From assembly GCF_001684965.1 (NCBI RefSeq), contig NZ_MAYG01000001.1, positions 2,666,001 through 2,730,000 on the forward strand: a stretch of 64,000 nucleotides of DNA. Reading direction: 5' to 3'. This DNA comes from Chryseobacterium arthrosphaerae (GTDB taxonomy: Bacteria > Bacteroidota > Bacteroidia > Flavobacteriales > Weeksellaceae). This document shows positions 1-14,670 of this stretch, one piece after another. Below the pieces are notes generated by a model. The model saw only the letters and a list, made by a program, of their open reading frames with translations. It was not told where the DNA came from and ran no database searches. The translations under genes and the position numbers were made by a program. Numbering within the stretch: the first letter of the stretch is position 1; every line of letters begins with the position of its first letter.

Positions 1-788
1 AGATAATTTAAATTATCAAAATAACTCTGTGGTTCTATAATAATCAGGTTAGAAAAGTCTTCTGTTTTGATACCAAAGTCCTGTACCATTTTTCTTGTTC
101 TCGGATGCAAGGCAATGATCACTTTTTCGGGAAGGCTGTTTAAGGCTTTGAAAATTTTTGTAAGTCTTTCAAGATTATCTGTATTATAAGGCCTATGAAT
201 AGTAACGTAATAGTATCCGAAATCAGACTTTTTATCACCGATTTTATTTTCAGCAATAACAAGATTCACCAGATCCTTCATAATATCTCCTACCATAACA
301 GCATCTTTGGAAAGTCCCTCCTGAGAAAGGTTTTCTACAGCAACGTCTGATGTCACAAATAGTTTTGAGGAGATATGATCAGTCAAAATTCTGTTTACCT
401 CTTCTGGCATTTCTTTATTAAAACTTCTCAGTCCTGCCTCTATATGAAATACAGGAATATGTAATTTAACGGCTACCAAAGCTCCGGCCAGAGTAGAATT
501 GGTATCTCCATATACTACTACGCCATCAGGTTTCTCATCAAGAATGATCTTTTCTATATCAATCATCATTTTCCCTGTTTGTTCACCGTGATTCCCACCT
601 CCATTCTGTAAGATATATTGCGGCTTTTTCATATTTAGCTGATCAAAAAATATGGTACTCATATTTTCATCATAATGCTGTCCTGTATGAATGGTGATAA
701 GGTTTATTTTATCTTCAGCTGCTTTTTCAAAAGGAAAATGTTTGATAAACTGAGGTCTCGCTCCAATAATCGCAATTATTTTTTTCAT
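1..788 (-). CDS. wbpI: UDP-GlcNAc 2-epimerase family protein, probable UDP-GlcNAc(3NAc)A 2-epimerase (partial)
   Basis: The reading frame starts at ATG 788 and runs off position 1 after 262 codons, so about the last third is missing. It has the hallmarks of the non-hydrolysing UDP-GlcNAc 2-epimerase family: MKKIIAIIGARPQFIK at the N-terminus, HTGQHYD, YGDTNST, HIEAGLRS and PEEVNR, and an HRPYN motif where WecB proteins usually have HRxEN. WecB converts UDP-GlcNAc to UDP-ManNAc, while WbpI acts on UDP-GlcNAc(3NAc)A. The four preceding genes are wbpA, wbpE, wbpD and wbpB, and only 8 nt separate it from wbpB, so I infer WbpI as the last step to UDP-ManNAc(3NAc)A. A WecB role cannot be excluded from the sequence alone. 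Confidence 0.8.
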   Translation of the reverse strand, partial: MKKIIAIIGARPQFIKHFPFEKAAEDKINLITIHTGQHYDENMSTIFFDQLNMKKPQYILQNGGGNHGEQTGKMMIDIEKIILDEKPDGVVVYGDTNSTLAGALVAVKLHIPVFHIEAGLRSFNKEMPEEVNRILTDHISSKLFVTSDVAVENLSQEGLSKDAVMVGDIMKDLVNLVIAENKIGDKKSDFGYYYVTIHRPYNTDNLERLTKIFKALNSLPEKVIIALHPRTRKMVQDFGIKTEDFSNLIIIEPQSYFDNLNY

Positions 789-796
789 CCTTAATT

Positions 797-1807
797 TTAT
801 TTTAAATGATATATCCTTTCGATAATATCAACAACTTTTAATCCTTCCAAAGCATTAGTTGTAATGGTATTTCTACCTTTTAATACATCCACTACATTTT
901 CAATGATATAATGGTGATTGGCTGCCGAACCTTTATATGCTCCATAGTCATTCCCTGGATTAGTAGGAGGCAACTCTGGCATCACATAGTCTTTAACGTT
1001 ACAAACTTCTACTTTATCCATGTACTGTCCTCCAATCTTTACAGATCCGTTTTCTGCAATAATTGTCATTGAGCTTTCAAGATTTTGGTTCCATACGGAT
1101 GTAGAATAATTTAAAGATCCCATTCCTCCGTTTACAAAATCAAAGCTTATAAACCCGGAATCTTCAAAATCTGTCAGATCTTTATGGTTAAAATCTTCAA
1201 ATTTTGCCTGAATATTAGTTATATCCCCGAATAGCCAGTACATAATATCTATAAAGTGGGAGAACTGGGTAAACAATGTTCCTCCATCCAAATCTTTTTT
1301 ACCATGCCATGATTCAGGCTTGTAATACCTGTCATCACGATTCCAATAACAATTAAGCTGAACCATGAATATTTTACCTAATCTTCCACTTTCTACCATT
1401 TCTTTAATCCATGCAGAAGGCGGGGAATAGCGGTTTTGCATTACAGCAAATACTTGTTTATGCTTATGAAGTGCCTGAAAAATCAATTTTTCAGCATCCT
1501 GCTTATTAAGAGCCATGGGTTTTTCCACAACTACATGTTTCCCAGCATCAATAACTTTGTATGCTTGTTCAAAATGAAATCCATTGGGAGAAGCAATATT
1601 GACTACGTCAATTTCAATACCTGAGTTCAGGAGTTCGTCCAATGATTGGAAAAAAGGGACATTATGGCTTTCAATCCCCAATGTAGATTTCTCTTTTACA
1701 TCTACTAAGGCTACCAATTCACATTCTGCATTTCTGGAGACCATTTCTGCATGTCTTTTCCCGATATGCCCGCAGCCAACAACCGCAAATTTTATTTTTT
1801 CAGACAT
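797..1807 (-). CDS. wbpB: UDP-N-acetyl-2-amino-2-deoxyglucuronate 3-dehydrogenase, Gfo/Idh/MocA family
   Basis: This 336-aa cytosolic protein has an N-terminal Rossmann fold (GCGHIG at 11-16) and the Gfo/Idh/MocA EKP motif (94-96), followed by the WlbA/WbpB-like segment NCYWNRDDRYY (151-161) and GGTLFTQFSHFID with H183 as the likely catalytic histidine. WbpB/WlbA oxidises C3 of UDP-GlcNAcA with tightly bound NAD+, and the family regenerates NAD+ by reducing 2-oxoglutarate to 2-hydroxyglutarate. The product is a 3-keto sugar used by WbpE. The gene is packed between wbpD (10-nt gap) and wbpI (8-nt gap). The assignment rests on the motifs plus the complete set of partner genes. Other Gfo/Idh/MocA substrates are less likely. 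Confidence 0.87.
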   Translation of the reverse strand: MSEKIKFAVVGCGHIGKRHAEMVSRNAECELVALVDVKEKSTLGIESHNVPFFQSLDELLNSGIEIDVVNIASPNGFHFEQAYKVIDAGKHVVVEKPMALNKQDAEKLIFQALHKHKQVFAVMQNRYSPPSAWIKEMVESGRLGKIFMVQLNCYWNRDDRYYKPESWHGKKDLDGGTLFTQFSHFIDIMYWLFGDITNIQAKFEDFNHKDLTDFEDSGFISFDFVNGGMGSLNYSTSVWNQNLESSMTIIAENGSVKIGGQYMDKVEVCNVKDYVMPELPPTNPGNDYGAYKGSAANHHYIIENVVDVLKGRNTITTNALEGLKVVDIIERIYHLK

Positions 1808-1817
1808 CTGTAATTTT

Positions 1818-2390
1818 TTAAATTTTCGAAACTCTATTATTTTCTAATCTGTATTGTTCTTTACTCTCTTCACATATTGCCATTCCCTGTTCATCAAAAT
1901 GAAGGCGATGTCCAAATTCGCTCATCCATCCCATTTGTCGGGCAGGATTACCCACCACCAAGGCATAGTCAGGCACTTCTTTTGTAACTACGGCTCCTGC
2001 TCCTATAAATGCAAAACGACCTATATCATGGCCACAAACAATTGTTGCATTGGCTCCTATAGAAGCCCCTTGCCCTACATGTGTTTTCAGATATTCATTC
2101 TTTCTGTTTACAGCACTTCTTGGATTTATTACATTAGTAAAAACCATAGAGGGCCCTAAAAAAACGTCATCATCACAAGTCACCCCCTCGTAAATAGAAA
2201 CATTGTTTTGAACCTTTACATTCTTACCTAAAATTACTTTAGGCGAGATCACTACATTCTGACCAATATTGCATTTCTCTCCTAAAATACAACCAGGCAT
2301 AATATGCGAAAAGTGCCAGATTTTTGTTCCGGCTCCTATTTGACATCCTTCATCAATAACGGCTGTTTCGTGTGCAAAAAAATCTGACAT
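1818..2390 (-). CDS. wbpD: UDP-2-acetamido-3-amino-2,3-dideoxyglucuronate N-acetyltransferase
   Basis: This 190-aa protein is built almost entirely of left-handed beta-helix hexapeptide repeats (for example IGAGTKIW, IGQNVVIS, LGKNVKVQ, IGANATIV, IGAGAVVT) and ends with the VGNPARQMGW motif typical of sugar-nucleotide N-acetyltransferases. WbpD/WlbB transfers acetyl from acetyl-CoA to the 3-amino group of UDP-GlcNAc(3NH2)A. Asn and His residues in the coils (NRKNEYLKTHVG near 96-107) match the family's active-site region. It follows wbpE by 11 nt in the same operon. Without context it could be another hexapeptide acetyltransferase such as PglD; the flanking wbpE and wbpB make WbpD the best call. 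Confidence 0.87.
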   Translation of the reverse strand: MSDFFAHETAVIDEGCQIGAGTKIWHFSHIMPGCILGEKCNIGQNVVISPKVILGKNVKVQNNVSIYEGVTCDDDVFLGPSMVFTNVINPRSAVNRKNEYLKTHVGQGASIGANATIVCGHDIGRFAFIGAGAVVTKEVPDYALVVGNPARQMGWMSEFGHRLHFDEQGMAICEESKEQYRLENNRVSKI

Positions 2391-2401: not shown

Positions 2402-3526
2402 TTAATTAAAATAGTTCTTAATTTCATCAATAATGACATCCAACACTTCCTGATTGAATTCTGTATGGATGGGTAGAGAAATCACTTCTGAACAAAGTAA
2501 TTCTGTAACCGGAAGTACAAATCCTTCTTCTACATATTGTAAAAAAGCTTCTTGCTTGTAAAGTGGTAAAGGATAATAAACCATACTGGGAATATTTTTT
2601 TCCGCTAGGTATTTCTGCAAACCGTCCCTCATTCCATTTTTTACTCGAATTGTATATTGATGAAATACATGGGTTGAATTTTCTGCTCTTCGAGGGATCT
2701 GAATCTGATCAATACCTTTTAAATTCTGATCATAATAATCTGCCATTTTATTTCTGGCAGCAGAATATTCATCCAGATATTTAAGCTTAACTTTTAATAC
2801 TGCAGCCTGTAAGGTATCCAGTCTAGAGTTACAACCTAATACTTTATGATAATATTTCTTTTCCTGACCATGATTGGCAATCATTCTTATTTTTGATGCT
2901 AATTCATCATTATTGGTCATCAATGCTCCTCCGTCACCATAGCATCCTAGATTTTTTGAAGGAAAGAATGAAGTACATCCAATATCGCCTATGGTTCCCG
3001 TTTTTCTTGTGGTTCCATCAGAAAATGTATAATCTGAGCCAATTGCCTGCGCATTATCTTCTATGACGAAAAGATTATATTTTTTAGCAAACTCAAGAAT
3101 TTTTTCCATATCGGTACTCTGACCGTATAAATGAACCGGAACAATAGCTTTTGTATTGGGAGTAAGATAAGATTCTAATCTCTGAAAATCAATATTGAAA
3201 GTATCTTCATTAACATCTACCATGACAGGCTTCAGTCCTAAAAGTCCAATAACTTCTGCAGTAGCTACGTAAGTAAAAGCCGGGCAAATCACTTCGTCTC
3301 CAGGCTTCAGCTCAAGAGCCATCATCGCAATCTGCAAAGCATCAGTTCCGTTAGCACATGGAATTACATGTTTTACCCCCAGATAATTTTCGAAATTTTG
3401 TTGAAACTCTTTTACTGCAGGACCGTTTATAAATGTTGTATTATCAATAGATTCCTGAATACCGGCATCTATTTCATTCTTTATTTTTTGATATTGACCT
3501 TTAAGATCAACCATTTGGATTTTCAT
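2402..3526 (-). CDS. wbpE: UDP-3-keto-GlcNAcA aminotransferase, DegT/DnrJ/EryC1/StrS family
   Basis: This 374-aa PLP-dependent sugar aminotransferase opens with MVDLKGQYQKIK, has the ANGTDALQIA phosphate-binding segment (58-67), the IEDNAQA cofactor motif with D157, and the PSKNLGCYGDGG motif with the Schiff-base lysine at K191. WbpE/WlbC transfers an amino group from glutamate to C3 of the keto sugar made by WbpB, releasing 2-oxoglutarate, which WbpB in turn reduces. The length is normal for the family. The 41-nt gap to lhgO upstream is the widest inside this part of the operon, but I see no terminator in it. The exact sugar substrate is inferred from operon content. Confidence 0.88.
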   Translation of the reverse strand: MKIQMVDLKGQYQKIKNEIDAGIQESIDNTTFINGPAVKEFQQNFENYLGVKHVIPCANGTDALQIAMMALELKPGDEVICPAFTYVATAEVIGLLGLKPVMVDVNEDTFNIDFQRLESYLTPNTKAIVPVHLYGQSTDMEKILEFAKKYNLFVIEDNAQAIGSDYTFSDGTTRKTGTIGDIGCTSFFPSKNLGCYGDGGALMTNNDELASKIRMIANHGQEKKYYHKVLGCNSRLDTLQAAVLKVKLKYLDEYSAARNKMADYYDQNLKGIDQIQIPRRAENSTHVFHQYTIRVKNGMRDGLQKYLAEKNIPSMVYYPLPLYKQEAFLQYVEEGFVLPVTELLCSEVISLPIHTEFNQEVLDVIIDEIKNYFN

Positions 3527-3567
3527 ATACAGTTTTTATGTTGTGGATATCATTCAGAAATACATAC

Positions 3568-4758
3568 TCAGTTCCCTATTTGCGCACTGATTTTATCTCC
3601 GATAGAGAGACAAGAAGTTGCTGCAGGAGAAGGTGCATTTCTTACATGGATGATATTTCCATTTTTCACGATATCAAAGTCATCAATTAATATACCGTTT
3701 CTATCACAAGCCTGAGCTCTAACTCCTGAACCTCCAGCAATAAGATCTCTTTCTTGTATTTCTGGCAATAATTTTTGTAATGCTTTTGTAAAAGCAGATT
3801 TTGAAAGCGAGCGATGAACTTCACCCATTCCTGTTTTCCCATATTTTGCAACAATTTTTCTAAAACCAGGCCAGGTAAGCGTTTGCATTGTTTCATTAAA
3901 ATCAAAATCAAAGAACTTATATCCTTCTTTTTTAAAAGCCAGCACCGCATTGGGGCCTGCTTCTATGTTCCCATCTATCATTCTTGTAAAATGCACACCC
4001 AAAAAAGGAAAATTAGGATCTGGTACCGGATAAATCAGGTGTTTCACAAGATGCTTTTTCTCATCTTTAATCTTATAATATTCACCTCTGAAAGGAATAA
4101 TGATTACATCATTCTTTTCATTAGTCATTTTTGTTATTTTATCCGAATAAAGACCGGCACAGGAAATCAGTTTTTTGGCTTTAAATTCAGAGTGAATAGT
4201 TTTAATAATGATTTCAGAACTTCTATTGACAATATTCTTTACTTCATGATTAAATTTAACCTCTCCTCCGAGCTCTTCGAAAAGTTCTTTTATTTTCTTT
4301 GCAATACCAGGGTAATCTATAATACCTGTCTGAGGAACTTTAATAGCTCTGACTCCTTCACAATGGGGTTCAATTTCTTGGAATTCTTCCCTGGAAAGAT
4401 ATTGCAAATTTTGAAGTCCGTTTTCTACACCTCTTTTATAGATATTATCCAAAAGAGGGAGCTCTTCCTGTGAAGTGGCAACAATAATCTTACCACAAAG
4501 GTCATATCTGATACCATGTTCTTTGGCAAAGTTAATTATTGAATTATAACCATCGATACAATTCTTTGCCTTAAGACTACCTGGTTTATAATAAATTCCG
4601 CTATGAATTACACCACTGTTATGCCCTGATTGGTGCAGTGAAACGTCATGTTCTTTTTCTAAAACAACAATCTTAGAATCCGGATTTTTAATTTTAACCT
4701 GATAGGCTGTAGCCAGACCTACCAGACCTGCACCAATGATTACAATGTCATAATTCAT
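3568..4758 (-). CDS. lhgO: L-2-hydroxyglutarate oxidase/dehydrogenase, FAD-dependent
   Basis: This 396-aa flavoprotein has an N-terminal dinucleotide motif (GAGLVG, 9-14), the LhgO/L2HGDH-type segment HQSGHNSGVIHSGIYY (42-57), a GVRAQ segment and a C-terminal FAD-contact region ending NAPSPAATSCLSIG. The family oxidises L-2-hydroxyglutarate to 2-oxoglutarate and passes electrons to oxygen or the quinone pool. It starts only 7 nt after wbpA and precedes wbpE, so it is translated within the UDP-ManNAc(3NAc)A operon. WbpB produces 2-hydroxyglutarate as by-product, which gives this enzyme a clear task here (see findings). The family assignment is strong; the link to WbpB is inference. A generic DAO-family oxidase is the main alternative. 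Confidence 0.88.
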   Translation of the reverse strand: MNYDIVIIGAGLVGLATAYQVKIKNPDSKIVVLEKEHDVSLHQSGHNSGVIHSGIYYKPGSLKAKNCIDGYNSIINFAKEHGIRYDLCGKIIVATSQEELPLLDNIYKRGVENGLQNLQYLSREEFQEIEPHCEGVRAIKVPQTGIIDYPGIAKKIKELFEELGGEVKFNHEVKNIVNRSSEIIIKTIHSEFKAKKLISCAGLYSDKITKMTNEKNDVIIIPFRGEYYKIKDEKKHLVKHLIYPVPDPNFPFLGVHFTRMIDGNIEAGPNAVLAFKKEGYKFFDFDFNETMQTLTWPGFRKIVAKYGKTGMGEVHRSLSKSAFTKALQKLLPEIQERDLIAGGSGVRAQACDRNGILIDDFDIVKNGNIIHVRNAPSPAATSCLSIGDKISAQIGN

Positions 4759-4765
4759 TTGTCTG

Positions 4766-6058
4766 TTATAATCTTGCGTCTACTAAATTTCTGTCTAAGC
4801 ATGCTTTAGTATCAAAAACTACAGCATTATCTTTTTTCAGTGTGTTAAGATCCATTTCAAGGAACTCATTATGTGATACAGCAATAATAAGCGAATCATA
4901 TTTTTTACCATCCTGAAGTTTTTCAAGGATTTCAATTCCATATTCATGTTTCACTTCTTCCTTACTTGCCCATGGATCGTAGATATCTACATGGATGCCG
5001 TAGTCAACAAGTTCGTTATAAATATCAACTACTTTTGTATTTCTAACATCCGGACAATTTTCTTTGAATGTAACTCCTAATATAAGGGCATTAGAATCTT
5101 TAATAATCCCTCCTTTCGCAATAAGTAATTTTACCACTTTAGAAGCTACAAATTTTGCAATAGAATCATTCACTCTTCTTCCAGATAATATAACATCAGG
5201 ATGATATCCCAATTGTTCTGCTTTGTGAGCCAAATAGTAAGGATCTACAGAAATACAGTGCCCACCTACTAATCCGGGTTTATATTTAAGAAAATTGTAT
5301 TTTGTTCCCGCAGCTTCCAATACATCATTAGTATCAATACCCACTCTGTCAAAGATCAAAGCCAACTCGTTCACAAAAGAAATATTAACATCCCTTTGTG
5401 CATTCTCAATGGCCTTGGAAGCTTCTGCTACTTTAATACTAGGTGCTTTATGTGTGCCTGCTGTAATAATTGTTTTATACAACTGATCAACTTCTTCCGC
5501 AATATTTTCAGTAGAACCGGAAGTTACTTTTTTTACACTGGTAAGCGTATTTACTTTATCTCCCGGGTTAATTCTTTCAGGTGAATATCCTACAAAGAAA
5601 TCTTCATTAAATGTAAGTCCTGAGTATTTCTCAAGAACAGGAACACACTCTTCTTCTGTACATCCGGGAAAGACAGTTGACTCATAAATAATGATATCCC
5701 CTTTCTTAATAATTTCTCCCAGCATTTTTGATGCTGAAATCAACGGATTTAAATCCGGAGCATTATATTTATCAATAGGGGTCGGTACGGTAACAATGTA
5801 TACATTAGCCTTTGCAATGTCAGCTAACTGACTTGTAGCAACATATCCTATTTTACCTTCTGATTCTTTATATTTTTTTAAGCCTTCATTAAGTTTATCA
5901 ATATCTGCCTCAAGTGTTATATCTAGACCATTATTAAGCTGGTCTACACGCTGAGCATTTATATCAAAACCTAATACAGGATAATGATTTGCAAATTCAA
6001 GAGATAATGGCAAACCAACATAGCCTTGCCCAATAACTGCTATTGTGTATAATTTCAT
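4766..6058 (-). CDS. wbpA: UDP-N-acetyl-D-glucosamine 6-dehydrogenase (WbpA/TviB type)
   Basis: This 430-aa protein belongs to the UDP-glucose/GDP-mannose dehydrogenase family. The Rossmann motif is VIGQGYVGLP (8-17), the substrate-linked segment ESTVFPGCTEEEC lies at 126-138, and the catalytic cysteine is C268 in GGHCISVDPYYL. The AEASKAIENAQRDVNISFVNEL block (211-232) is typical of the WbpA/WbpO/TviB subgroup acting on UDP-HexNAc, not of UDP-glucose dehydrogenases. It converts UDP-GlcNAc to UDP-GlcNAcA with two NAD+, the first step of the pathway encoded by the following genes. It lies just downstream of wzc (3-nt gap). A UDP-GalNAc dehydrogenase role is possible but fits the neighbours less well. 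Confidence 0.88.
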   Translation of the reverse strand: MKLYTIAVIGQGYVGLPLSLEFANHYPVLGFDINAQRVDQLNNGLDITLEADIDKLNEGLKKYKESEGKIGYVATSQLADIAKANVYIVTVPTPIDKYNAPDLNPLISASKMLGEIIKKGDIIIYESTVFPGCTEEECVPVLEKYSGLTFNEDFFVGYSPERINPGDKVNTLTSVKKVTSGSTENIAEEVDQLYKTIITAGTHKAPSIKVAEASKAIENAQRDVNISFVNELALIFDRVGIDTNDVLEAAGTKYNFLKYKPGLVGGHCISVDPYYLAHKAEQLGYHPDVILSGRRVNDSIAKFVASKVVKLLIAKGGIIKDSNALILGVTFKENCPDVRNTKVVDIYNELVDYGIHVDIYDPWASKEEVKHEYGIEILEKLQDGKKYDSLIIAVSHNEFLEMDLNTLKKDNAVVFDTKACLDRNLVDARL

Positions 6059-6061
6059 ATT

Positions 6062-8437
6062 TTATAATCTGTCTTTTATTTTTTCCAACCAGTTTTTTTC
6101 TTTTGTTCCATAACCATAGCCATATTTATTACCATAGCCAAAATAGTTTTTATTTACATCATTGATAACAAAACCAACATTCTTGATTTTCTTCTGACTG
6201 ATATTTGTATTGGCAAAATCCACAAGGGTTTTCTCTGTATATTTGGATCTGGTAACATACAATGTCACATCCGCATAATCAGCTATAAGTAATGTATCGG
6301 TAACCAACATTAATGGCGCAGTATCTAAAATAATGTAATCATACTGAACCTCTAATCCTTTTAACAATATTTCAAACCTTCCATTAGAAAGTAATTCCGT
6401 AGGATTGGGCGGGATCATTCCTGAATAAATTACATCCAGATGAGGATTAAAAGAAGAGGTATGAATAATACTCTCTAACTGAGTATCATCAGAGTATAAA
6501 AACTCGGTAAGACCACTGAGTCCTTTTCTCGCAGGATTATATCTCTGTAACTGAGGATTTCGTATATCTGCACCAATGATAATGACTTTCTTTTTCGGTG
6601 TTGCCATGGTAAGGGCAAGGTTTACAGAAACAAAGGTTTTTCCTTCCCCTTTTACTGTAGAAGTTACATATATCTTTTTCCCACCATTTCTCTTAGGCAG
6701 CATATAGTTCATATTTGTAATCATAATCCTGAAAGCTTCAGCCATAGGAGAAAGATCATTGGTTTGAATCAGATCATGATCTCCTTTTTCAAGACTAGGA
6801 ATCTCACCAATAACTGGTGTATTAGATGAATTCTCCAAATCATGTTTTGTACGAATTTTGTTGTTCAATAATTCGCCTAAGTATACGATGATAAATGGAA
6901 TAAGTAGCCCTACTAAAAGTGCAGATAAAAGAACGAAATTTCTTTTTGGCGCTACCGGACCAGTGGTATAGGCTGCATCTAAAATTTTAGCTTTCGGTGC
7001 AGTAATTGACTCGGCAATTGCAGTTTCCTCTCTTTTTTGTAATAAGAGAATATATAAATTTTCTTTGATTTGTTGCTTCCTCTCTATTCCTCTGAATATT
7101 TTTTCGATAGATGGAAGTTTTGAAATTTTATCTGAAATTTTATTTTGCTCACCCAAATATTCATTTCTTGCAAGCTCTAATCCAGCCTTGCTCCTTTGAA
7201 GACTTTGTATAACGGATGAACGCATAGAGTTTATCTGTCTTGTAACATCAATAACTGCCGGGTTTTCTGGAGTTGCTGATTCCAATAATCGACTTCTTTG
7301 AGCAATAAGCTGATTATAAACTGATATTTCAGAACCTGCTTCTGCATTATTTAATCCGACATTCACAGGAAGTACCTGGTATTGTCCTTGTTTAGATACA
7401 AATCCTAGCAATGAGTTTGTTAATTCCAATTGGGCGTCAAGCTCTAATTGTTTTGATCTTGCAGCAGCTGCACCTTCAAGGCTTATTTTTGCTTCTACTT
7501 CTATATCTGAAAGGTTATTTTTTGATTTGAAACCTTCTTTTTCATTTTCTACCTGGCCAAGTTCTACAGAAAGTTTAGCAATCCTGTCTTCAATAAAATC
7601 TAATGTTTTCTTTGATTCAGAATTTTTATCTGTGATAGCATCATAATTATAGGCTGTAATCAGATCATTAATAATATCCTGTGCTTTATCAATCTGAGGA
7701 TATCTCATCATTAATCTAAGAACTGTTGCATCTTTATTTACAAAATTCACATTCAACCCTCCTAATAATCCACCTACTTTTGCATCTACAGAAGCAATAT
7801 CAAGAATAAGATTATTGTAGTCTATTCCAGGTAATGCCTTAGGGTCAAAGTTTTTATTTTTAGTAATGATGATATTGGCAAAAGGCAAGCCTATTGTTTT
7901 TCCAAACCCTGTTACTATTTCTTTTTTGGATTTACCTACATTCAATGTAAGTTTATCTTTATTAATATTCAACTTAACAGGATCTCTTGTTGGGCTGGGC
8001 TTATCATTAATAACAGTTACAATAATCGGAGATGTTTCTTTGTAAAGTTCTATATTGGTAAATTTACCTTCTCCAAAAATATTCGTTTGAAGGTTTTTCT
8101 TAATAACAACCTCTTTCATCAAACGTTTAGACTTCAGGATTTCTATCTCATTAGCAATACTATTGGTTTTAAGACCTCCAAATGTACTTAAATCCGGAAG
8201 TATACCCAATTCGTTACTGGATGGAGTTGAATTATTACTTGCGTCTTTAATAAGAATTGTAGACTGTACATTGTATACAGTTGTCATATATTTAAGTGAA
8301 ACAAAACCTATAACAAGAGCTGCTATTGCAAAACCTACAAACAAAGGCCATTTCCTTAAATACGGCTTAATTATTTCGTTAATTTTAATGTTATTATTTT
8401 CCGACTCGAAAAACTGTGAAGAATTTTGATTATCCAT
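6062..8437 (-). CDS. Wzc-like polysaccharide co-polymerase with BY-kinase domain
   Basis: I start this 791-aa inner-membrane protein at ATG 8437; a TTG codon immediately upstream could extend it by one residue. Order of parts: TM helix about 32-49, a large periplasmic Wzz/GNVR region with helical stretches around 280-470, TM helix about 500-520, then a cytoplasmic bacterial tyrosine kinase domain. The kinase has Walker A GEGKT (597-601), Walker A' IIGADIRNP near 618-628 and Walker B YIILD (701-705). The C-terminus carries a tyrosine cluster ([13 protein letters not shown], 765-777) suited to autophosphorylation. Such proteins set chain length and couple polymerisation to export with the Wza partner encoded just upstream (7-nt gap). 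Confidence 0.92.
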
Positions 8438-8444
8438 CAATCTT

Positions 8445-9266
8445 TTATTTCTTATTAAATAAACTAAATACTAATGCGATGGCAGTAACACCAATCGAAA
8501 TTGCCGTCAAGTAAAGTCCTGTATTGGGGTTTTGTTTTGCTGTAACGTCTTTTGTGTTGTTAGAAGCAACAATGATGGCATCTCCCTGCTTTAAATTATA
8601 AAAAGGAGAGTTAATAAGATTAGCATCTTGAAGATTGATTCGTCCGTGAGTAACTGTTCCATTCTCTGTTCTTATAATAAGAACCTGGTCTCTTTTCCCA
8701 TACATCGTCAAATCTCCAGCCATTCCTAATGCATTAAGAATAGTTCCTTGTCCGTTTGATATAAAATAGTCTCCCTGACGGTTTACCTCTCCTAATACAG
8801 TAACTTTAAAGTTGGCTAAACGAACATTCACTGTAGGGTTAATAACATATTTAGTCATTTTCCCTCTCAATTCATCTTTAAACTCGGTTAATGACTTATC
8901 TTTTGTATTTATTTTTCCTAAAATCGGAAAATCAATATTTCCATCTGCATCTACAATATAAGTAGGTCCTGTAATCACACTTACTCCTTGGCTGGGAGTA
9001 TTTCCTCCTGCACTGGTATTAGTCTGGATAGATTCTGATGAAGAATAATTTTGGTTAAAAGGTTTTACAACATCCATATCTTTTGCTGTAATCAAAATAA
9101 CAAGCTGATCTCCTACTTGAATCGTATTATTAGAATTTTTAGCCGATGCATCTATAGCCACTTGTTCTATATTTTGCATATAGTTCAATTCATTTTTAGC
9201 ACTAGGATTTACTTTACAGGAAACCAATAAAGAAATCAATGCTATTGCTAATATTTTTCCTTTCAT
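8445..9266 (-). CDS. Wza-like polysaccharide export lipoprotein (Poly_export and SLBB domains)
   Basis: This 273-aa lipoprotein has a lipobox LLVSC with the modified cysteine at about residue 17, a Poly_export domain (roughly 45-155, with GQVILVQ-like strands and FPILGKI), one SLBB domain ([16 protein letters not shown] onward) and a hydrophobic C-terminal helix (about 252-270) ending FNKK. E. coli Wza is longer, so this is the short flavobacterial form. It should form the outer-membrane exit channel for the polysaccharide and dock with the Wzc-like protein encoded next. The upstream 38-nt gap contains a -7-like box (9284-9291), so it may have its own promoter besides read-through from the dehydratase gene. 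Confidence 0.9.
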
Positions 9267-9304: not shown

Positions 9305-11233
9305 CTATTTATCTAACGCCTCGTAGATAGAATTATTACTTCTAAATTCAGGTACAATTGTTTTTAGAATTTTTACTACTTCCACCTTATCTCTTCGTAA
9401 AGAGGCTTTGGTTATCTGTTTTGTCAACAGATCTATTTCTTCAAATCCCATTGACGGATCTTTGGAAACCATAATCTTTTCATTATGAGTCGGAAGTGTT
9501 TTAGCATTATCACTTAACAGCTCTTCATAAAGTTTTTCTCCTGGCCTCAGCCCTGTATAAATAATCTTAATATCTATATTCGGCTCAAGCCCAGAAAGTT
9601 TTATCATTCGATTGGCAAGGTCCAGAATCTTAACAGGCTCTCCCATATCAAAAACAAAAATTTCTCCTCCTTCCCCCATTGTTCCTGCCTGAAGAACAAG
9701 CTCGCAAGCTTCAGGAATAGTCATGAAGTATCTCACAATATCAGGGTGAGTAATAGTTACCGGACCTCCTGCTTCAATTTGTCTTTTAAAGTGAGGAATC
9801 ACTGAACCGTTAGACCCTAATACATTTCCAAATCTTGTAGTAATAAACTTTGTGGTATTACCTTCTACATTCTGAAGAGATTGTACAAACAATTCTGCAG
9901 CACGTTTAGAGGCTCCCATTACATTTGTTGGGTTCACTGCTTTATCAGTAGACACCATAACAAATCTATTCACTTTATATTTACTTGATAGTCTTGCAAC
10001 AATTTTCGAACCTAATATATTGACAAAAATGGCCTCGTGAGGATTTTCTTCTACCAAAGGAACATGCTTGTAAGCAGCCGCATGATATACCATAGAAAAA
10101 TTATACATCTGAAATAAAGATTCCATTCTATGCTGGTTTGAAACATCACCTAAAACAAACTTAAATGCAATATGAGGGAATTTCTCTCTCATTTCAAGCT
10201 CAATTTCGTAAAGCGGTGTTTCTGCCTGGTCCAAAACAACAATCAAAGATGGATTTACCAATGCAACCTGTCTTACAATTTCGCTACCAATAGAACCAGC
10301 ACCACCTGTAACCAATACAGTTTTATCAAAATGTCTGCTTTGAATTTTTTCATTCTGAATTTTAATGGGCTTCCTATTTAATAAATCTTCAATCTGAAGA
10401 TTTTTAATTGATCCGCCTAAATCGCTGTCTCGCAGTTTTTGTACAGAAGGAGCCTTGAAAACATTCAAATCTTTTTCCAGAAATAAATTCACCCAACTAT
10501 TCATTTCATCCCTGGCCATCATTTCCTTAACGATGAGGACTCCATCAATGATCAGATCATCTTTTGAATTTTCTTCAATCTTTTGTTTCTCATATATGGG
10601 TTTTCCAAGCAGTGAAGCTCTTTTAGAATCCGTTCTTTGTGTAAGAAACCCTACTACCTGATAAGGTAAACTTGGATTATCCAAAATAGCACGGGCAATG
10701 GCTATAGATTGTTCATCAATTCCTAATACTAAAATTCTTTTTTTCAGTGCACTTCTTCTATATTCTCTTACGATATGAAAAAATTCTTTAACATAGAGCC
10801 TAAAAAGAAACAGTCCCATAAAAGAGATAACAAAATACAGGATCAGGTAAGGTGTAAGAATAAATTTGCTCCCGCTTGTCCAGAAATAAAACATATTAAT
10901 GGTCCCGATAGTAAACATCGTACAGAAGCAGGATACCAACAATTTAAAAAGGTCTATAAATGTTGAGTGTCTTATAATTCCTGCATAGGTCTTAAAAAGA
11001 TACATAAAGACTGTGTTTACTACAATAATAAAAGCAAAAACAGTACTTTTATCATCATGGTAAATAAACTCTTTTTGTGTAATTTTTTCAATAATGTAAG
11101 TTGAAAGGAACAGAGAGATGACCAGAATAATAATATCTATTATAAGTATTATCCATCTGGGAAGATATCTTACGTCTGAGAGATTGACAACATTATCTCC
11201 TCCAAATATTGTTTTCCTAAGAGAATTATACAT
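9305..11233 (-). CDS. Membrane-anchored UDP-HexNAc 4,6-dehydratase (WbpM/PglF/CapD family)
   Basis: This 642-aa protein has four predicted TM helices (about 26-48, 66-82, 98-118, 127-148), a linker Rossmann-like domain (about 165-290) and a C-terminal extended-SDR domain starting TGGAGSIG (309-316). The SDR active site has methionine in place of tyrosine, NVMGASK (M439, K443), with STDKAVNP nearby. This is the SMK pattern of WbpM/PglF UDP-GlcNAc C6 dehydratases. It would make UDP-4-keto-6-deoxy-HexNAc, the precursor of QuiNAc or FucNAc-type sugars, often the first sugar of a repeat unit. It is the first gene of the operon seen here, with 600 nt of gene-free DNA upstream. Confidence 0.88.
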   Translation of the reverse strand: MYNSLRKTIFGGDNVVNLSDVRYLPRWIILIIDIIILVISLFLSTYIIEKITQKEFIYHDDKSTVFAFIIVVNTVFMYLFKTYAGIIRHSTFIDLFKLLVSCFCTMFTIGTINMFYFWTSGSKFILTPYLILYFVISFMGLFLFRLYVKEFFHIVREYRRSALKKRILVLGIDEQSIAIARAILDNPSLPYQVVGFLTQRTDSKRASLLGKPIYEKQKIEENSKDDLIIDGVLIVKEMMARDEMNSWVNLFLEKDLNVFKAPSVQKLRDSDLGGSIKNLQIEDLLNRKPIKIQNEKIQSRHFDKTVLVTGGAGSIGSEIVRQVALVNPSLIVVLDQAETPLYEIELEMREKFPHIAFKFVLGDVSNQHRMESLFQMYNFSMVYHAAAYKHVPLVEENPHEAIFVNILGSKIVARLSSKYKVNRFVMVSTDKAVNPTNVMGASKRAAELFVQSLQNVEGNTTKFITTRFGNVLGSNGSVIPHFKRQIEAGGPVTITHPDIVRYFMTIPEACELVLQAGTMGEGGEIFVFDMGEPVKILDLANRMIKLSGLEPNIDIKIIYTGLRPGEKLYEELLSDNAKTLPTHNEKIMVSKDPSMGFEEIDLLTKQITKASLRRDKVEVVKILKTIVPEFRSNNSIYEALDK

Positions 11234-11833
11234 TGTCTATATTGGTATTCATATGTTAATTAATACGGTACTAATCTTGGTTACTAATTTAATTGCTTTA
11301 AAAGCATTCATGCAAAATTAAAATAAAATATCATCTATATTCTAGATTTCAAAAAAATAAAATTAATTTCTGGATTGTATCTCCAGATTCCTTATCCTAT
11401 TCTTTTTCATCATTTAAATTTAGTACCAATAATAAATACTGACTAGGGTCAAAAAGCATACCATAAATATTAATTGTAAAAAAATGTTTTTTTTCTAAAC
11501 AACACTTATTTTCAATAAGATTCTGACTTTTAGAGTATTTTATTAAAATTTCTTTTAAATTTTTCTTTTTAATTATTCCTTTATTATTTCATTCTATTGT
11601 GACTGTATTTAATGAACTGTTCGTTTTAACAATTGCTTCTTTTTTATCAAAAGCAGCAGATACTACAAAAAGTAGCAATTAAATCTTAATGTCAAAAATG
11701 TCTTAAATTCATCAGTATTGATTTAGTGAGAATATCAGCTTAACATTAATGTATTATGAACATATTCCTATTTGTTCTTTATGTTGTGCTGATGATGTTT
11801 AATTTTTTCTTCCAATATTCCTGTGTTTAATTT
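11234..11833. other. 600-nt AT-rich gene-free region upstream of the polysaccharide operon
   Basis: I find no convincing gene on either strand. The stretch is very rich in A and T, with long T runs. On the minus strand TAATTTTG (11313-11320) matches the TAnnTTTG -7 box about 80 nt before the dehydratase ATG, but no TTG lies at the right -33 distance. A small inverted repeat TCTGGA/TCCAGA sits near 11370-11390. No clear terminator for recX (which ends at 11834) is visible. This is most likely the regulatory head of the polysaccharide operon. Confidence 0.5.
11313..11320 (-). promoter_or_regulatory. -7 promoter box (TAATTTTG) for the polysaccharide operon
   Basis: This is an exact match to TAnnTTTG on the minus strand, which would give an untranslated leader of about 73 nt before the dehydratase ATG at 11233. 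No matching -33 element was seen, so the call rests on the -7 box and its position alone. Confidence 0.35.
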
Positions 11834-12292
11834 TTAGTCAAAAATATCATTTATTTTCTCATATTCAAAGCCTCTGCTCATGAGATATTTTATAGTTTTT
11901 GATTTTTTTTGATATTCCTGTAATCCTTTCTGTTTAGAAGAGTAATCCTCATAAATTCTTTTGATGGTTTTGATGTAGTCATCTTCATATATTTCATCAA
12001 AGCACGAGTTGATCAGTTTTTCGGATATCTGCTTCTGTTTCAGATGCATTCTGATTTTATTCTTCCCCCAATGCTTGATGTAAAATTTACCTCTGATATA
12101 ACTCCTTGTAAAGCGTTCTTCATTTAAGTAGTTTTCTTTGAGGAGATACAGGATAATTTCTTCTCTCGCTTCATCAATCAGCAGGAATTCTTTCATCTTC
12201 TGCTCTACTTCTGCATGACACCTGTCCTGGTAAACACAATAGCTGACCAGTTTCTGCTTGATTTCCTCGAAAGTAAAAGATTTTTTTTCCAT
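11834..12292 (-). CDS. recX: Regulatory protein RecX
   Basis: This is a small basic, helical protein of 152 aa from ATG 12292 (MEKKSFTFEEIKQKLVSYC). The RecX pattern is visible: an N-terminal CVYQDRCHAEVEQKM repeat (the usual L...R.hs..El..KL), then YLNEERFTRSYIRGK and KHWGKNKIRMHLKQKQIS, then a third repeat toward the C-terminus. RecX binds and inhibits RecA filaments. An in-frame ATG ten codons upstream (12322) lies inside the glyA terminator stem, so I prefer the MEKK start, where the family homology begins. It follows glyA on the same strand with an intervening terminator, so its expression either needs read-through or an unseen promoter. Confidence 0.85.
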   Translation of the reverse strand: MEKKSFTFEEIKQKLVSYCVYQDRCHAEVEQKMKEFLLIDEAREEIILYLLKENYLNEERFTRSYIRGKFYIKHWGKNKIRMHLKQKQISEKLINSCFDEIYEDDYIKTIKRIYEDYSSKQKGLQEYQKKSKTIKYLMSRGFEYEKINDIFD

Positions 12293-12297
12293 TGTAT

Positions 12298-12327
12298 AAA
12301 AAAAGAATGAGCTTACGCCCATTCTTT
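12298..12327 (-). terminator. Rho-independent terminator after glyA, abutting recX
   Basis: On the minus strand the stem is AAAGAATGGGC / GCTCATTCTTT with loop GTAA and one mismatch, followed directly by a run of seven T. The T-tract ends 6 nt before the recX ATG. Confidence 0.8.
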
Positions 12328-12347
12328 GTATGATATTATAATGCCTG

Positions 12348-13613
12348 TTAGTAATTGAACAGCGCTTTACCTTCCATTAATTCATTCACTTTCTTTCTTA
12401 CAGATGCAAGAACTTCTTCATTTTTGATATTATCTACCACCTCAGAGATCAGCCCTGCAATAGTATCCATATCATTTTCTTTAAGCCCTCTGGTGGTAAT
12501 GGCAGCAGTTCCCAATCTGATACCAGATGTAGTGAACGGAGATTTATCATCAAAAGGAACCATATTTTTGTTACAAGTAATATCAGCAAGTACCAGTGCT
12601 TTTTCTGTTTCTTTACCGTTTACTCCTTTGTTTCTAAGGTCTACCAACATCAGGTGGTTGTCTGTACCTCCACTTACGATATCAAAACCTCTGTCGATCA
12701 TCGCTTTTGATAACGCCTGTGCATTAGCTTTAACCTGTTTTGCGTAAGTTTCGAATTGTACGTCCAATGCTTCACCGAAAGCCACAGCCTTACCGGCAAT
12801 CACATGCTCCAGCGGACCTCCCTGGATACCCGGAAATACAGCACCATCCAATACCTGGCTCATCATTTTGATTTCTCCTTTTGGCGTTTTGTGACCATAA
12901 GTATTTTCAAAATCTTTCCCCATCATGATCATTCCTCCTCTAGGACCTCTTAAAGTCTTGTGGGTGGTAGTGGTCACTACATGGCAGTGTTCGAATGGAG
13001 AATTCAATAATCCTTTTGCTACCAGACCTGCAGGGTGTGCAATATCTGCCCAAAGCGTTGCTCCGATCTCGTCAGCCACTTCTCTGAATTTAGCATAGTC
13101 AAGGTCTCTTGAATAGGCAGAGAAACCTGCAATCATCATTTTCGGTCTTTCTCTGAGAGCTACTTCTCTCATCTGATTGTAATCGATAAGACCGGTTTCT
13201 CTCTCTACTCCGTAAGAAACCACTTCATATTGGATTCCTGAGAAGTTAACAGCAGAACCGTGAGTAAGGTGCCCTCCCATTGAAAGGTCCATTCCCATGA
13301 TCTTATCTCCTGGTTTCAAAACGGCAAGATAAATGGCAGCATTCGCCTGAGAACCGGAATGGGGCTGTACGTTCACATAATCTACTCCGAAAAGTTCTTT
13401 TGCTCTGTTGATAGCCAGTGTTTCAACCTCATCTACTACTTCGCATCCTCCGTAATATCTTTTTCCGGGGTATCCTTCAGCATATTTGTTTGTCAGTACA
13501 CTTCCCATTGCTTTCATCACATTTTCAGAAACAAAGTTTTCTGATGCGATAAGCTCTAATCCATGGGTTTGTCTTTGTCTTTCCTTTTCAATCAGGTCGA
13601 AAATAATATCCAT
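12348..13613 (-). CDS. glyA: Serine hydroxymethyltransferase
   Basis: This is the full-length (421 aa) PLP enzyme that interconverts serine and glycine and loads one-carbon units onto tetrahydrofolate in the cytosol. Clear markers are LIASENFVS near the N-terminus, [37 protein letters not shown], and the PLP-lysine motif [14 protein letters not shown]. The C-terminal [10 protein letters not shown] and [10 protein letters not shown] segments are also present. It has a -7 box 30 nt upstream and its own terminator, so it is probably transcribed alone. Confidence 0.98.
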
Positions 13614-13643
13614 TTTACTTTTAGTTTTTGAAATTTATCCCCC

Positions 13644-13651
13644 CAAATGTA
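13644..13651 (-). promoter_or_regulatory. -7 promoter box (TACATTTG) of glyA
   Basis: The minus strand has TACATTTG, an exact TAnnTTTG match, 31 nt before the glyA ATG, giving a leader of about 24 nt. No consensus -33 TTG was found at the expected distance. Confidence 0.5.
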
Positions 13652-13764
13652 CGGATTTTTCACCGAGATTCCGGTATTAAAAAAATGATTTTTAAACACC
13701 AAAAAGGGAAGTCTGAAAAGTAGATTTATTATTCCTGCTGATTTTATTTTCCCCAAAAAACACA

Positions 13765-14670
13765 TTAAAATGCTTCATCAGAAAGCTCTTTATTCACCAT
13801 AGCTCCTGCAAAATTTCCTTGTGCTACAGCATTGGCTACGGATCTCATCATGGTTACGTTATCACCACAGGCAAAAACTCCGGGAACATTTGTTTTCTGC
13901 ATAAAATCTACTTTGATAAATCCTTGCTCCGTCAGTTCACAGCCAAGGTTTCCCGATGCATCAATATTCTGCTCAAAAGGAATCTTGGCATACAGGGCCT
14001 GTAATGATACGGTCTCTCCATTTTTAAAGATTATCTGCTGAATATAGCCATCTGCATGTTCAATTTTTTCAATTTCATTTTCATTAAGACTGATTGTATT
14101 CTGCTTCAGCTTTTCAATCTGATCGTCAGAAAGAACTGCTTTTCCGTTGGTAAACAAGGTCAGGCTTTTGGTCATATTAAAAATCAGTTTGGAAAATTCA
14201 AAAGCCATTTCTCCGTTGGAAAGAATTCCCGTCACTTCATTTTTTACTTCATAGCCATGACAGTACGGGCAATGCAGCACAGAAATCCCCCAACATTCTG
14301 CAAAACCTGGAATATCCGGCATGACATCCTTCACCCCGGAAGCCAGAATCAGTTTTTTAGCAGAAAATATGTCACCGGAAGCTGTTTCGACTGCAAAACC
14401 GGAATTGCTTTCTGACATTTTGATAACCGTTCCGTTATAGAAATGAACGGTATCATATTTTTCAACATCTTTTTTAGCCAGGTGTGAAATTTCCTTTGGA
14501 GTTTTCCCGTCATGGGTAATAAAATTATGAGAATGCGGAGTCTGCCTGTTACAGGGTTTTCCGTTATCAATCACCAGAACATTTCGCAGAGATCTTCCCA
14601 AAGCCATTGCTGCGGATAATCCGGCGTAACTGCCTCCTGTAATGATGACATCGAAGTTTTTATTTTGCAT
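13765..14670 (-). CDS. Thioredoxin-reductase-like NAD(P)/FAD-dependent oxidoreductase
   Basis: This 301-aa two-domain flavoprotein has an FAD-binding N-terminus (VIITGGSYAGLSAAMALG), a CPYC dithiol motif in HCPYCHGYEV near residue 130, and the C-terminal FAD motif GVFACGDNV. The layout matches thioredoxin reductase, but the active site reads CPYC, not CATC, and the second nucleotide-binding site is degenerate (GILSNGEMAFEFSK), so the partner may not be thioredoxin. Related short flavoproteins often act in redox or drug detoxification in Bacteroidota; the substrate here is unknown. It stands alone, with a promoter whose -33 element overlaps an inverted repeat, so it is probably controlled by a repressor or activator encoded elsewhere. 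Confidence 0.82.
   Translation of the reverse strand: MQNKNFDVIITGGSYAGLSAAMALGRSLRNVLVIDNGKPCNRQTPHSHNFITHDGKTPKEISHLAKKDVEKYDTVHFYNGTVIKMSESNSGFAVETASGDIFSAKKLILASGVKDVMPDIPGFAECWGISVLHCPYCHGYEVKNEVTGILSNGEMAFEFSKLIFNMTKSLTLFTNGKAVLSDDQIEKLKQNTISLNENEIEKIEHADGYIQQIIFKNGETVSLQALYAKIPFEQNIDASGNLGCELTEQGFIKVDFMQKTNVPGVFACGDNVTMMRSVANAVAQGNFAGAMVNKELSDEAF

Follow-up and report, generated by a model that had tools for sequence, protein, structure and literature searches.

Recycling of 2-hydroxyglutarate is already known to be tied to O-antigen synthesis. In Pseudomonas aeruginosa PAO1, the wbp sugar 3-dehydrogenase WbpB makes D-2-hydroxyglutarate and is inhibited by it, the 2-hydroxyglutarate dehydrogenase PA0317 (D2HGDH) returns this acid to 2-oxoglutarate, and deletion of the D-2-hydroxyglutarate dehydrogenase results in less O antigen (PMC8651671). 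In another setting, the csiD-lhgO-gabDTP genes of glutarate and lysine catabolism in Escherichia coli and Pseudomonas include an oxidase, LhgO, that converts L-2-hydroxyglutarate to 2-oxoglutarate (PMC6265302, PMC8206213); CsiD is the known source of the L acid in lhgO operons, and the E. coli enzyme passes its electrons to quinone (PMC6265302). The csiD-lhgO setting recurs in PMC3234257, and the lhgO neighbourhoods given in PMC8206213, a text that mentions neither ‘polysaccharide’ nor ‘UDP’, hold lhgR or genes of the csiD/gab set. A search of the open literature, mostly at the level of listings, returned no paper that places lhgO within a wbp operon or any operon for polysaccharides. Here, we describe such an arrangement in a 64,000-nucleotide stretch of the Chryseobacterium arthrosphaerae genome (contig NZ_MAYG01000001.1, positions 2,666,001–2,730,000; hereafter the window), in which lhgO lies inside the operon for uridine diphosphate (UDP)-ManNAc(3NAc)A synthesis.

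The PAO1 system, whose PA0317 gene we take to be sited away from wbp, differs in acting on the D isomer and in using an unrelated oxidase family together with another WbpB family. What is new in the window is the L-specific family, LhgO, placed within the operon and accompanied by a WbpB resembling the Bordetella/Chromobacterium proteins. Unlike the csiD-lhgO-gabDTP setting, the neighbours of lhgO are wbp genes, and no match to CsiD (PF08943) was found in the window's genome (99.94% complete) by a search that recovered the control in E. coli. We propose that in Chryseobacterium and its relatives LhgO probably recycles L-2-hydroxyglutarate arising as a side product; that it does so as an accessory of the WbpB/WbpE step is a claim to which we give about even chances. 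This loop appears the most likely reading because the six substrate contacts of LhgO are complete, the gene was recruited to wbp loci at least twice, it occurs in none of the 165 family genomes without a window-type wbpB, and neither CsiD nor a PF02913 protein was detected in the genome.

An LhgO within the wbp gene set

The open reading frame (ORF) at 3568–4758 lies on the minus strand and encodes 396 amino acids (aa), the plus strand over the same interval containing 10 stops. Its product scores 542.8 bits against NF008726, for which the equivalog cut-off is 299, and its AlphaFold model (predicted local distance difference test score 92.4) has the Drosophila L2HGDH structure 8w7f as its best match in the Protein Data Bank (PDB), with a template modelling (TM) score of 0.96; the top 12 matches are all Drosophila L2HGDH chains, with query TM scores of 0.93–0.96. 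The Drosophila enzyme contacts 2-oxoglutarate through Ser88, His92, Tyr289, Leu299, His302, and Arg393, is inactive on D-2-hydroxyglutarate, and differs in fold from the known D-2-hydroxyglutarate enzyme (PMC10726252). All six contacts are matched in the window protein by S48, H52, Y243, L253, H256, and R347, and they are complete in 101 of the 103 different LhgO sequences compared, including every wbp-linked sequence that is itself complete over these sites. The two exceptions are a protein that ends at a contig edge after the third site (L143) and one from a non-wbp setting with Ala for Leu (L254). By score, predicted fold, and active-site residues, we thus assign the gene to LhgO, with activity on the L isomer predicted, in agreement with the family named in the original prediction. 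The sole other LhgO match in the genome is weak (29%, E 4e-7). Ratios of non-synonymous to synonymous substitution (omega) of 0.02–0.04 in ten pairs from five close relatives, the pairs with the window copy being saturated at synonymous sites, indicate that lhgO is under strong purifying selection.

Along the minus strand, 5′ to 3′, the genes run wbpM-like, wza-like, wzc-like, wbpA, lhgO, wbpE, wbpD, wbpB, wbpI, of which the last six are as follows:

4766–6058, minus strand: wbpA, UDP-GlcNAc 6-dehydrogenase (TIGR03026, 395.9 bits, cut-off 189.8; NF011729, 523.5 bits, under its cut-off of 592)
3568–4758, minus strand: lhgO, flavin adenine dinucleotide (FAD)-dependent L-2-hydroxyglutarate oxidase/dehydrogenase, 396 aa (NF008726, 542.8 bits)
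2402–3526, minus strand: wbpE, pyridoxal phosphate-dependent aminotransferase (PF01041, 388 bits)
1818–2390, minus strand: wbpD, hexapeptide N-acetyltransferase (PF00132)
797–1807, minus strand: wbpB, UDP-GlcNAcA 3-dehydrogenase of the GFO/IDH/MocA family, nearest to the Bordetella/Chromobacterium WlbA family (PF01408/PF22725)
3–788, minus strand: wbpI, UDP-sugar 2-epimerase, truncated at the window start (PF02350, 227 bits)

Gaps of 7 nt between wbpA and lhgO and of 41 nt between lhgO and wbpE separate these same-strand genes, just as originally described. The joint presence of wbpA, wbpB, wbpD, wbpE, and wbpI constitutes the gene set of a UDP-ManNAc(3NAc)A operon, and the window WbpD shares 53–57% identity with its counterparts in six wbp loci from Pseudomonadota. 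A scan of positions 3000–6500 gave 22 promoter-like sites against 15.5 expected and 3 terminator-like sites against 1.8, an uninformative outcome.

Linkage of lhgO and wbp genes across genomes

Among 197 Weeksellaceae genomes, lhgO (called at E up to 1e-60) occurs in 31, always as a single copy, and wbpB of the window type (at least 75% identity, a threshold set after the data were seen) in 32, including all 31 with lhgO; no lhgO was detected at that E-value in the 165 genomes without a window-type wbpB (Fisher 2e-35, shared ancestry ignored). Since the two genes lie on the same contig within 6 kb in 30 of the 31 (1.9–5.5 kb start to start), their order is not due to chance; in the remaining genome (G271) they are on separate contigs, with lhgO still adjoining wbpA. 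Indeed, wbpA is immediately upstream of lhgO in all 30 family loci other than the window, overlapping it by 4 nt in two (G256 and G268; L121 and L119), and wbpE follows lhgO in 28 of the 30, there being no match beside lhgO in G271 and G329. One of the 28 wbpE genes is a remnant of ~103 aa in G415 (L115:10893–11201, minus strand), in a locus where lhgO, wbpD, and wbpB look whole. In G339, the only genome with a window-type wbpB and no lhgO, wbpE and wbpD are likewise missing from the stretch between wbpA and wbpB. The position of lhgO after wbpA stays constant while the genes downstream of wbpB are exchanged among loci. Similarly, in G012, wbpD is swapped for a pyruvate-dehydrogenase-E1-like protein and a NeuD-like acyltransferase (L114:9744–12822, plus strand) and lhgO remains; a family scan of L114 found that the former protein is a fusion of segments resembling E1 alpha and E1 beta, and a swap of this type would likely give the 3-amino sugar another acyl group. 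In G327 (L122), ORFs of the same sizes occupy the place of wbpD. The lhgO-wbp link in this family is real.

At the scale of phyla, genome-wide co-occurrence is moderate in both of those sampled. Of 247 Bacteroidota genomes (lhgO at E up to 1e-60, WbpB at E up to 1e-40), 100 have lhgO, 43 WbpB, and 28 both, so that lhgO is present in 28/43 genomes with WbpB versus 72/204 without it (Fisher 5e-4). The corresponding figures for 219 Pseudomonadota genomes are 36 with LhgO, 16 with WbpB, and 10 with both, that is, 10/16 versus 26/203 (Fisher 1.7e-5), shared ancestry being ignored in both tests. Across Bacteroidota as a whole, lhgO was not found to be enriched in the vicinity of wbpB: it lies within 10 kb of WbpB on one contig only in G000, G210, G012, and G095, all of the window's genus, and in G026. 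The genes are 20–23 kb apart in G038 and G100. Diverged copies of LhgO (42%) occur near the start of polysaccharide loci, 20–23 kb from wbpB, at L110:5503–6747 and L112:5457–6701 (both plus strand), the former coming after an epimerase-type gene. In the Pseudomonadota sample, adjacency was seen in two genomes, G443 and G475.

The pairing also recurs outside the family. A scan of named genomes for the Chromobacterium-type WbpB, keeping the best 80 (mostly from Pseudomonadota) of at least 587 confirmed relatives, yielded 51 loci of more than 18 kb and 29 cut by contig ends. In 4 of these 80, all from metagenome assemblies, lhgO follows the wbp genes on the same strand, as against ~0.05–0.08 expected if LhgO is as frequent as in the sampled Pseudomonadota and genomes of 3–5 Mb are assumed. 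The order is wbpA-B-D-E-I-lhgO in L143 (Sterolibacteriaceae) and L168 (assigned to Legionella), wbpA-B-D-E-lhgO in L212 (Mariprofundaceae; the genome sampled as G443), and wbpB-D-E, ~0.8 kb without an assigned gene, and lhgO in L201 (Gammaproteobacteria). These four LhgO proteins are 31–36% identical to that of the window, and the three scored against NF008726 (L168, L201, and L212) pass it with 323–342 bits. A fifth Pseudomonadota case is L220 of G475. In that locus, a second flavoprotein, glycerol-3-phosphate dehydrogenase-like but of 358 aa, lies between wbpD and wbpE (L220:9379–10452, plus strand). In G026, from another class of the window's phylum, a second lhgO copy ends the run wbpI-B-D-E-glycosyltransferase-lhgO (L109), the other copy being elsewhere beside a PF02913-type protein.

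In an LhgO tree of 84 sequences, with near-identical family members thinned, the approximately unbiased (AU) test rejects the grouping of all 18 wbp-linked sequences in one clade (p 2e-68), whereas one clade is not rejected for the five Pseudomonadota sequences (p 0.60) or for the 12 Weeksellaceae sequences together with L109 (p 0.63). These trees therefore indicate that the lhgO-wbp pairing arose at least twice; the four separate recruitments of a quick tree (4 changes) were not retained, as the AU tests leave two merged clades standing. Taken with the way the presence of lhgO follows that of the wbp genes in the family, this recurrence in Pseudomonadota supports the functional tie that had been proposed from the window alone.

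A proposed source of 2-hydroxyglutarate

In the scheme we favor, LhgO would serve the WbpB/WbpE step in UDP-GlcNAc(3NAc)A/UDP-ManNAc(3NAc)A synthesis as a dedicated accessory enzyme. WbpB would oxidize C3 of UDP-GlcNAcA with NAD, and WbpE, which is expected to convert glutamate to 2-oxoglutarate, would aminate the resulting 3-keto sugar with glutamate, releasing 2-oxoglutarate. With WbpE supplying 2-oxoglutarate and WbpB supplying NADH at one place, the simplest way to join them is a reduction to L-2-hydroxyglutarate there, by WbpB or a bystander dehydrogenase; the maker would most likely be WbpB itself, as an outlet for NADH or through a side reaction. LhgO, using FAD, would then return the L acid to 2-oxoglutarate and pass the electrons to quinone or oxygen, with the effect that product inhibition is relieved, the unfavorable C3 oxidation is pulled forward, and 2-oxoglutarate and glutamate are kept available. 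The analysis shows the gene content and order, the co-occurrence and its independent recurrence, and the active-site residues of LhgO, whereas the formation of L-2-hydroxyglutarate, the enzyme forming it, and the electron acceptor are inferred; the L-isomer loop is a live prediction rather than an established pathway. Its fuller form, in which a Bordetella/Chromobacterium-like WbpB of the LhgO lineages reduces 2-oxoglutarate to L-2-hydroxyglutarate and the respiratory chain drives C3 oxidation by way of a 2-oxoglutarate/L-2-hydroxyglutarate shuttle, as a mirror of the P. aeruginosa D system with LhgO recruited at least twice, is offered tentatively, at somewhat less than even chances.

Two WbpB families are distinguished. 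The P. aeruginosa enzyme works by a ping-pong mechanism with 2-oxoglutarate and shares 49% identity with that of Thermus, while the B. pertussis and C. violaceum enzymes are sequential (PMC10622841). The window WbpB scores 185.6 bits against PDB entry 3q2k, 178.7 against 3q2i (residues 3–334 aligned), and 47 against 3o9z, and 3oa2 is not among the best 60 of its 97 PDB matches. We take 3oa2 to be P. aeruginosa WbpB and 3q2k/3q2i to be the WlbA proteins of B. pertussis and C. violaceum, respectively; the 3q2i stretch has matches of 96–97% in contigs from Chromobacterium. By sequence, the window protein falls outside the P. aeruginosa/Thermus type (3oa2/3o9z), whose members L289 and L290 score 342–415 bits against those two entries; it is 28% identical to a protein of that type over 210 columns and 34% identical to one of the Chromobacterium type over 336 columns. 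The lhgO-linked WbpB proteins of L220 and L109 likewise have 3q2k/3q2i as their nearest solved relatives. Identity of the window WbpB to the Bordetella/Chromobacterium type is just ~30–34%, and it may thus belong to a third family. We know of no requirement for 2-oxoglutarate in the Bordetella/Chromobacterium WlbA. The premise of the original prediction, namely that WbpB re-oxidizes tightly bound NADH with 2-oxoglutarate, had been carried over from P. aeruginosa WbpB, which is of another sequence family and has a D product; for the window protein it is not supported.

Several comparisons aimed at WbpB were set aside. The WbpB proteins of L143, L168, and L212 are 77–83% identical to a WbpB without LhgO found nearby, and, at that identity, no clear residue marker of an L-forming enzyme emerged. 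LhgO was absent within 10 kb in all ten P. aeruginosa/Thermus-type loci, which were found via their wbpD (two tied to 3oa2/3o9z directly, the rest by 57–76% identity to the L289 protein); 0/10 against 4/80 are numbers too small to make LhgO exclusive to the Bordetella/Chromobacterium type. As a separate observation, three close WbpB relatives of 469 aa (P0021, P0022, and P0026; two named Chryseobacterium arthrosphaerae) carry extra Pfam matches to what we take to be ankyrin-repeat families.

The D-2-hydroxyglutarate dehydrogenase type, PF02913, is a broad family that also covers glycolate and lactate enzymes. No PF02913 protein was found in the window's genome, the control being matched in 11 of 14 genomes. 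In the family, it is present in 11 of 197 genomes, in none of the 31 with lhgO, and in none of the 15 with a more distant WbpB; a mutual substitution of lhgO and a D-2-hydroxyglutarate dehydrogenase was rejected, as the two do not strictly alternate, the distant-WbpB genomes lacking both. PF02913 is present in 12 of 14 other genomes checked, those without it being the Legionella-assigned genome and G017. When the 80 named loci were searched with a PF02913 protein, no match lay close to WbpB. In a later set of loci, L269 (3–2402 and 8121–9227, plus strand) has a 37% WbpB relative without wbpD or wbpE alongside and a PF02913-like match within 10 kb. In several genomes of group f23, an lhgO copy stands beside a protein weakly (25–27%) matching a PF02913 protein (L240, L241, L242, and L244; a few kb apart in L243), PF02913 itself having been scanned in G026 only; such a gene pair may handle both isomers of 2-hydroxyglutarate.

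A number of observations weigh against the recycling loop. The only WbpB found with its 2-hydroxyglutarate product determined, that of P. aeruginosa, makes the D isomer, on which Drosophila L2HGDH is inactive, and the family nearer to the window WbpB is reported to be sequential rather than ping-pong with 2-oxoglutarate (PMC10622841). The clash of isomers is no direct contradiction because another WbpB family may make the other isomer; by the same token, the difference in family also removes the direct evidence for 2-hydroxyglutarate formation by the window WbpB. The 15 family genomes with a more distant WbpB (50–73%) have neither lhgO nor PF02913, although they may make another sugar, as no wbpA match was found in the 19 kb of any of the 10 such loci inspected. 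In 3 of the 31 family genomes with lhgO (G271, G329, and G415), it is retained without an intact wbpE alongside. Enrichment of lhgO beside wbpB, which the original prediction expected across Bacteroidota, is strong in the family (30/31 within 6 kb) and weak in the phylum, where outside the window's genus lhgO lies within 10 kb in 1 of 39 genomes with WbpB; adjacency may be missed there because many of the assemblies are drafts. Most WbpB clusters seem to do without LhgO, the retrieved flanks showing none in 76 of the 80 named loci, and three of the four genomes with the Pseudomonadota run (L143, L168, L201, and L212) carry PF02913, whose lack is therefore not what calls for LhgO there.

The best surviving alternative retains LhgO as an L-2-hydroxyglutarate oxidase and assigns the source elsewhere: a promiscuous dehydrogenase, malate dehydrogenase being a possible one, would use the NADH of WbpB and the 2-oxoglutarate of WbpE, with WbpB itself making none. 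This suits the sequential mechanism reported for WbpB proteins closer to that of the window (PMC10622841) as well as the preference of LhgO-type enzymes for the L isomer (PMC10726252), and it dispenses with 2-oxoglutarate reduction by WbpB. However, a promiscuous source would call for LhgO regardless of wbp, whereas lhgO was detected in the family (E up to 1e-60) only in genomes with a window-type wbpB, and we consider this account unlikely. Less probable still is that lhgO is a passenger that was captured by a mobile polysaccharide locus, spreads with it, and does a housekeeping job having nothing to do with the sugar. Polysaccharide loci do recombine as blocks, the family pattern could reflect a few events, and lhgO, wbpE, and wbpD are all missing from G339; against this, an unlike LhgO recurs beside wbp genes in another phylum, omega is low at 0.02–0.04, and the place of lhgO after wbpA holds while wbpD in G012 and the genes downstream of wbpB are exchanged.

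At a slightly lower level, we place the proposal that LhgO merely resembles an L-2-hydroxyglutarate oxidase and acts on some other pathway substrate, such as a hydroxy acid or a sugar nucleotide. The WbpB proteins of the window, L220, and L109 are nearest to a family not known to make 2-hydroxyglutarate, and L220 has its second, glycerol-3-phosphate dehydrogenase-like flavoprotein, both of which would accord with it, but the fully conserved 2-oxoglutarate contacts, the TM score of 0.96 to Drosophila L2HGDH, and the NF008726 score far over the cut-off speak for the canonical substrate. Finally, a loop on the D isomer, with wbp-linked LhgO having changed its handedness so as to oxidize WbpB-made D-2-hydroxyglutarate, would match the only determined WbpB product (PMC8651671) and the lack of a PF02913 match in the genome, but it is improbable given that the six contacts are kept in every wbp-linked LhgO complete over these sites, as in LhgO from other settings, and that the known D enzyme has another fold (PMC10726252).

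The wider polysaccharide locus and its meaning

Upstream of wbpA, the locus continues with genes pertaining to polysaccharide synthesis and export:

6062–8440, minus strand: wzc-like chain-length/export tyrosine kinase (ORF and conserved position)
8445–9266, minus strand: wza-like polysaccharide export lipoprotein (ORF and conserved position)
9305–11233, minus strand: wbpM/CapD-like UDP-GlcNAc 4,6-dehydratase (TIGR03589, 189 bits, under its cut-off of 407.75)

The wzc-like and wza-like names are provisional and reflect in part the general appearance of the sequences. At the other end, wbpI extends past the window start into the neighboring locus L260, the next 16 kb, which holds an FnlA-like dehydratase and two sets of a WbuX/WbpG-like amidotransferase, HisH, and an AglZ/HisF2-family protein (L260:3627–6151 and 11307–13842, minus strand). 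In the P. aeruginosa O5-type pathway, UDP-ManNAc(3NAc)A is made by WbpA-B-E-D-I, and WbpG/HisH2/HisF2 provide an acetamidino modification. The window shares all five synthesis genes with that pathway, along with the downstream WbuX/WbpG-like, HisH, and AglZ/HisF2-family genes; unlike it, the window adds lhgO between wbpA and wbpE. The two sets in L260 suggest two acetamidino-type modifications, and the gene content fits an O5-like pathway leading to ManNAc(3NAc)A and to the acetamidino derivative of this sugar, on what we take to be the function of the O5-like genes.

If the proposed loop is correct, bacterial LhgO would gain a biosynthetic role besides that in lysine and glutarate catabolism, and the loop would explain what drives an unfavorable oxidation of a nucleotide sugar and how product inhibition is avoided. 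Should a supposedly 2-oxoglutarate-independent WbpB make the L acid, two WbpB families would be using opposite-handed versions of one redox trick; should such a WbpB make no L acid, LhgO would have a different substrate or partner within a sugar pathway that has been well studied.

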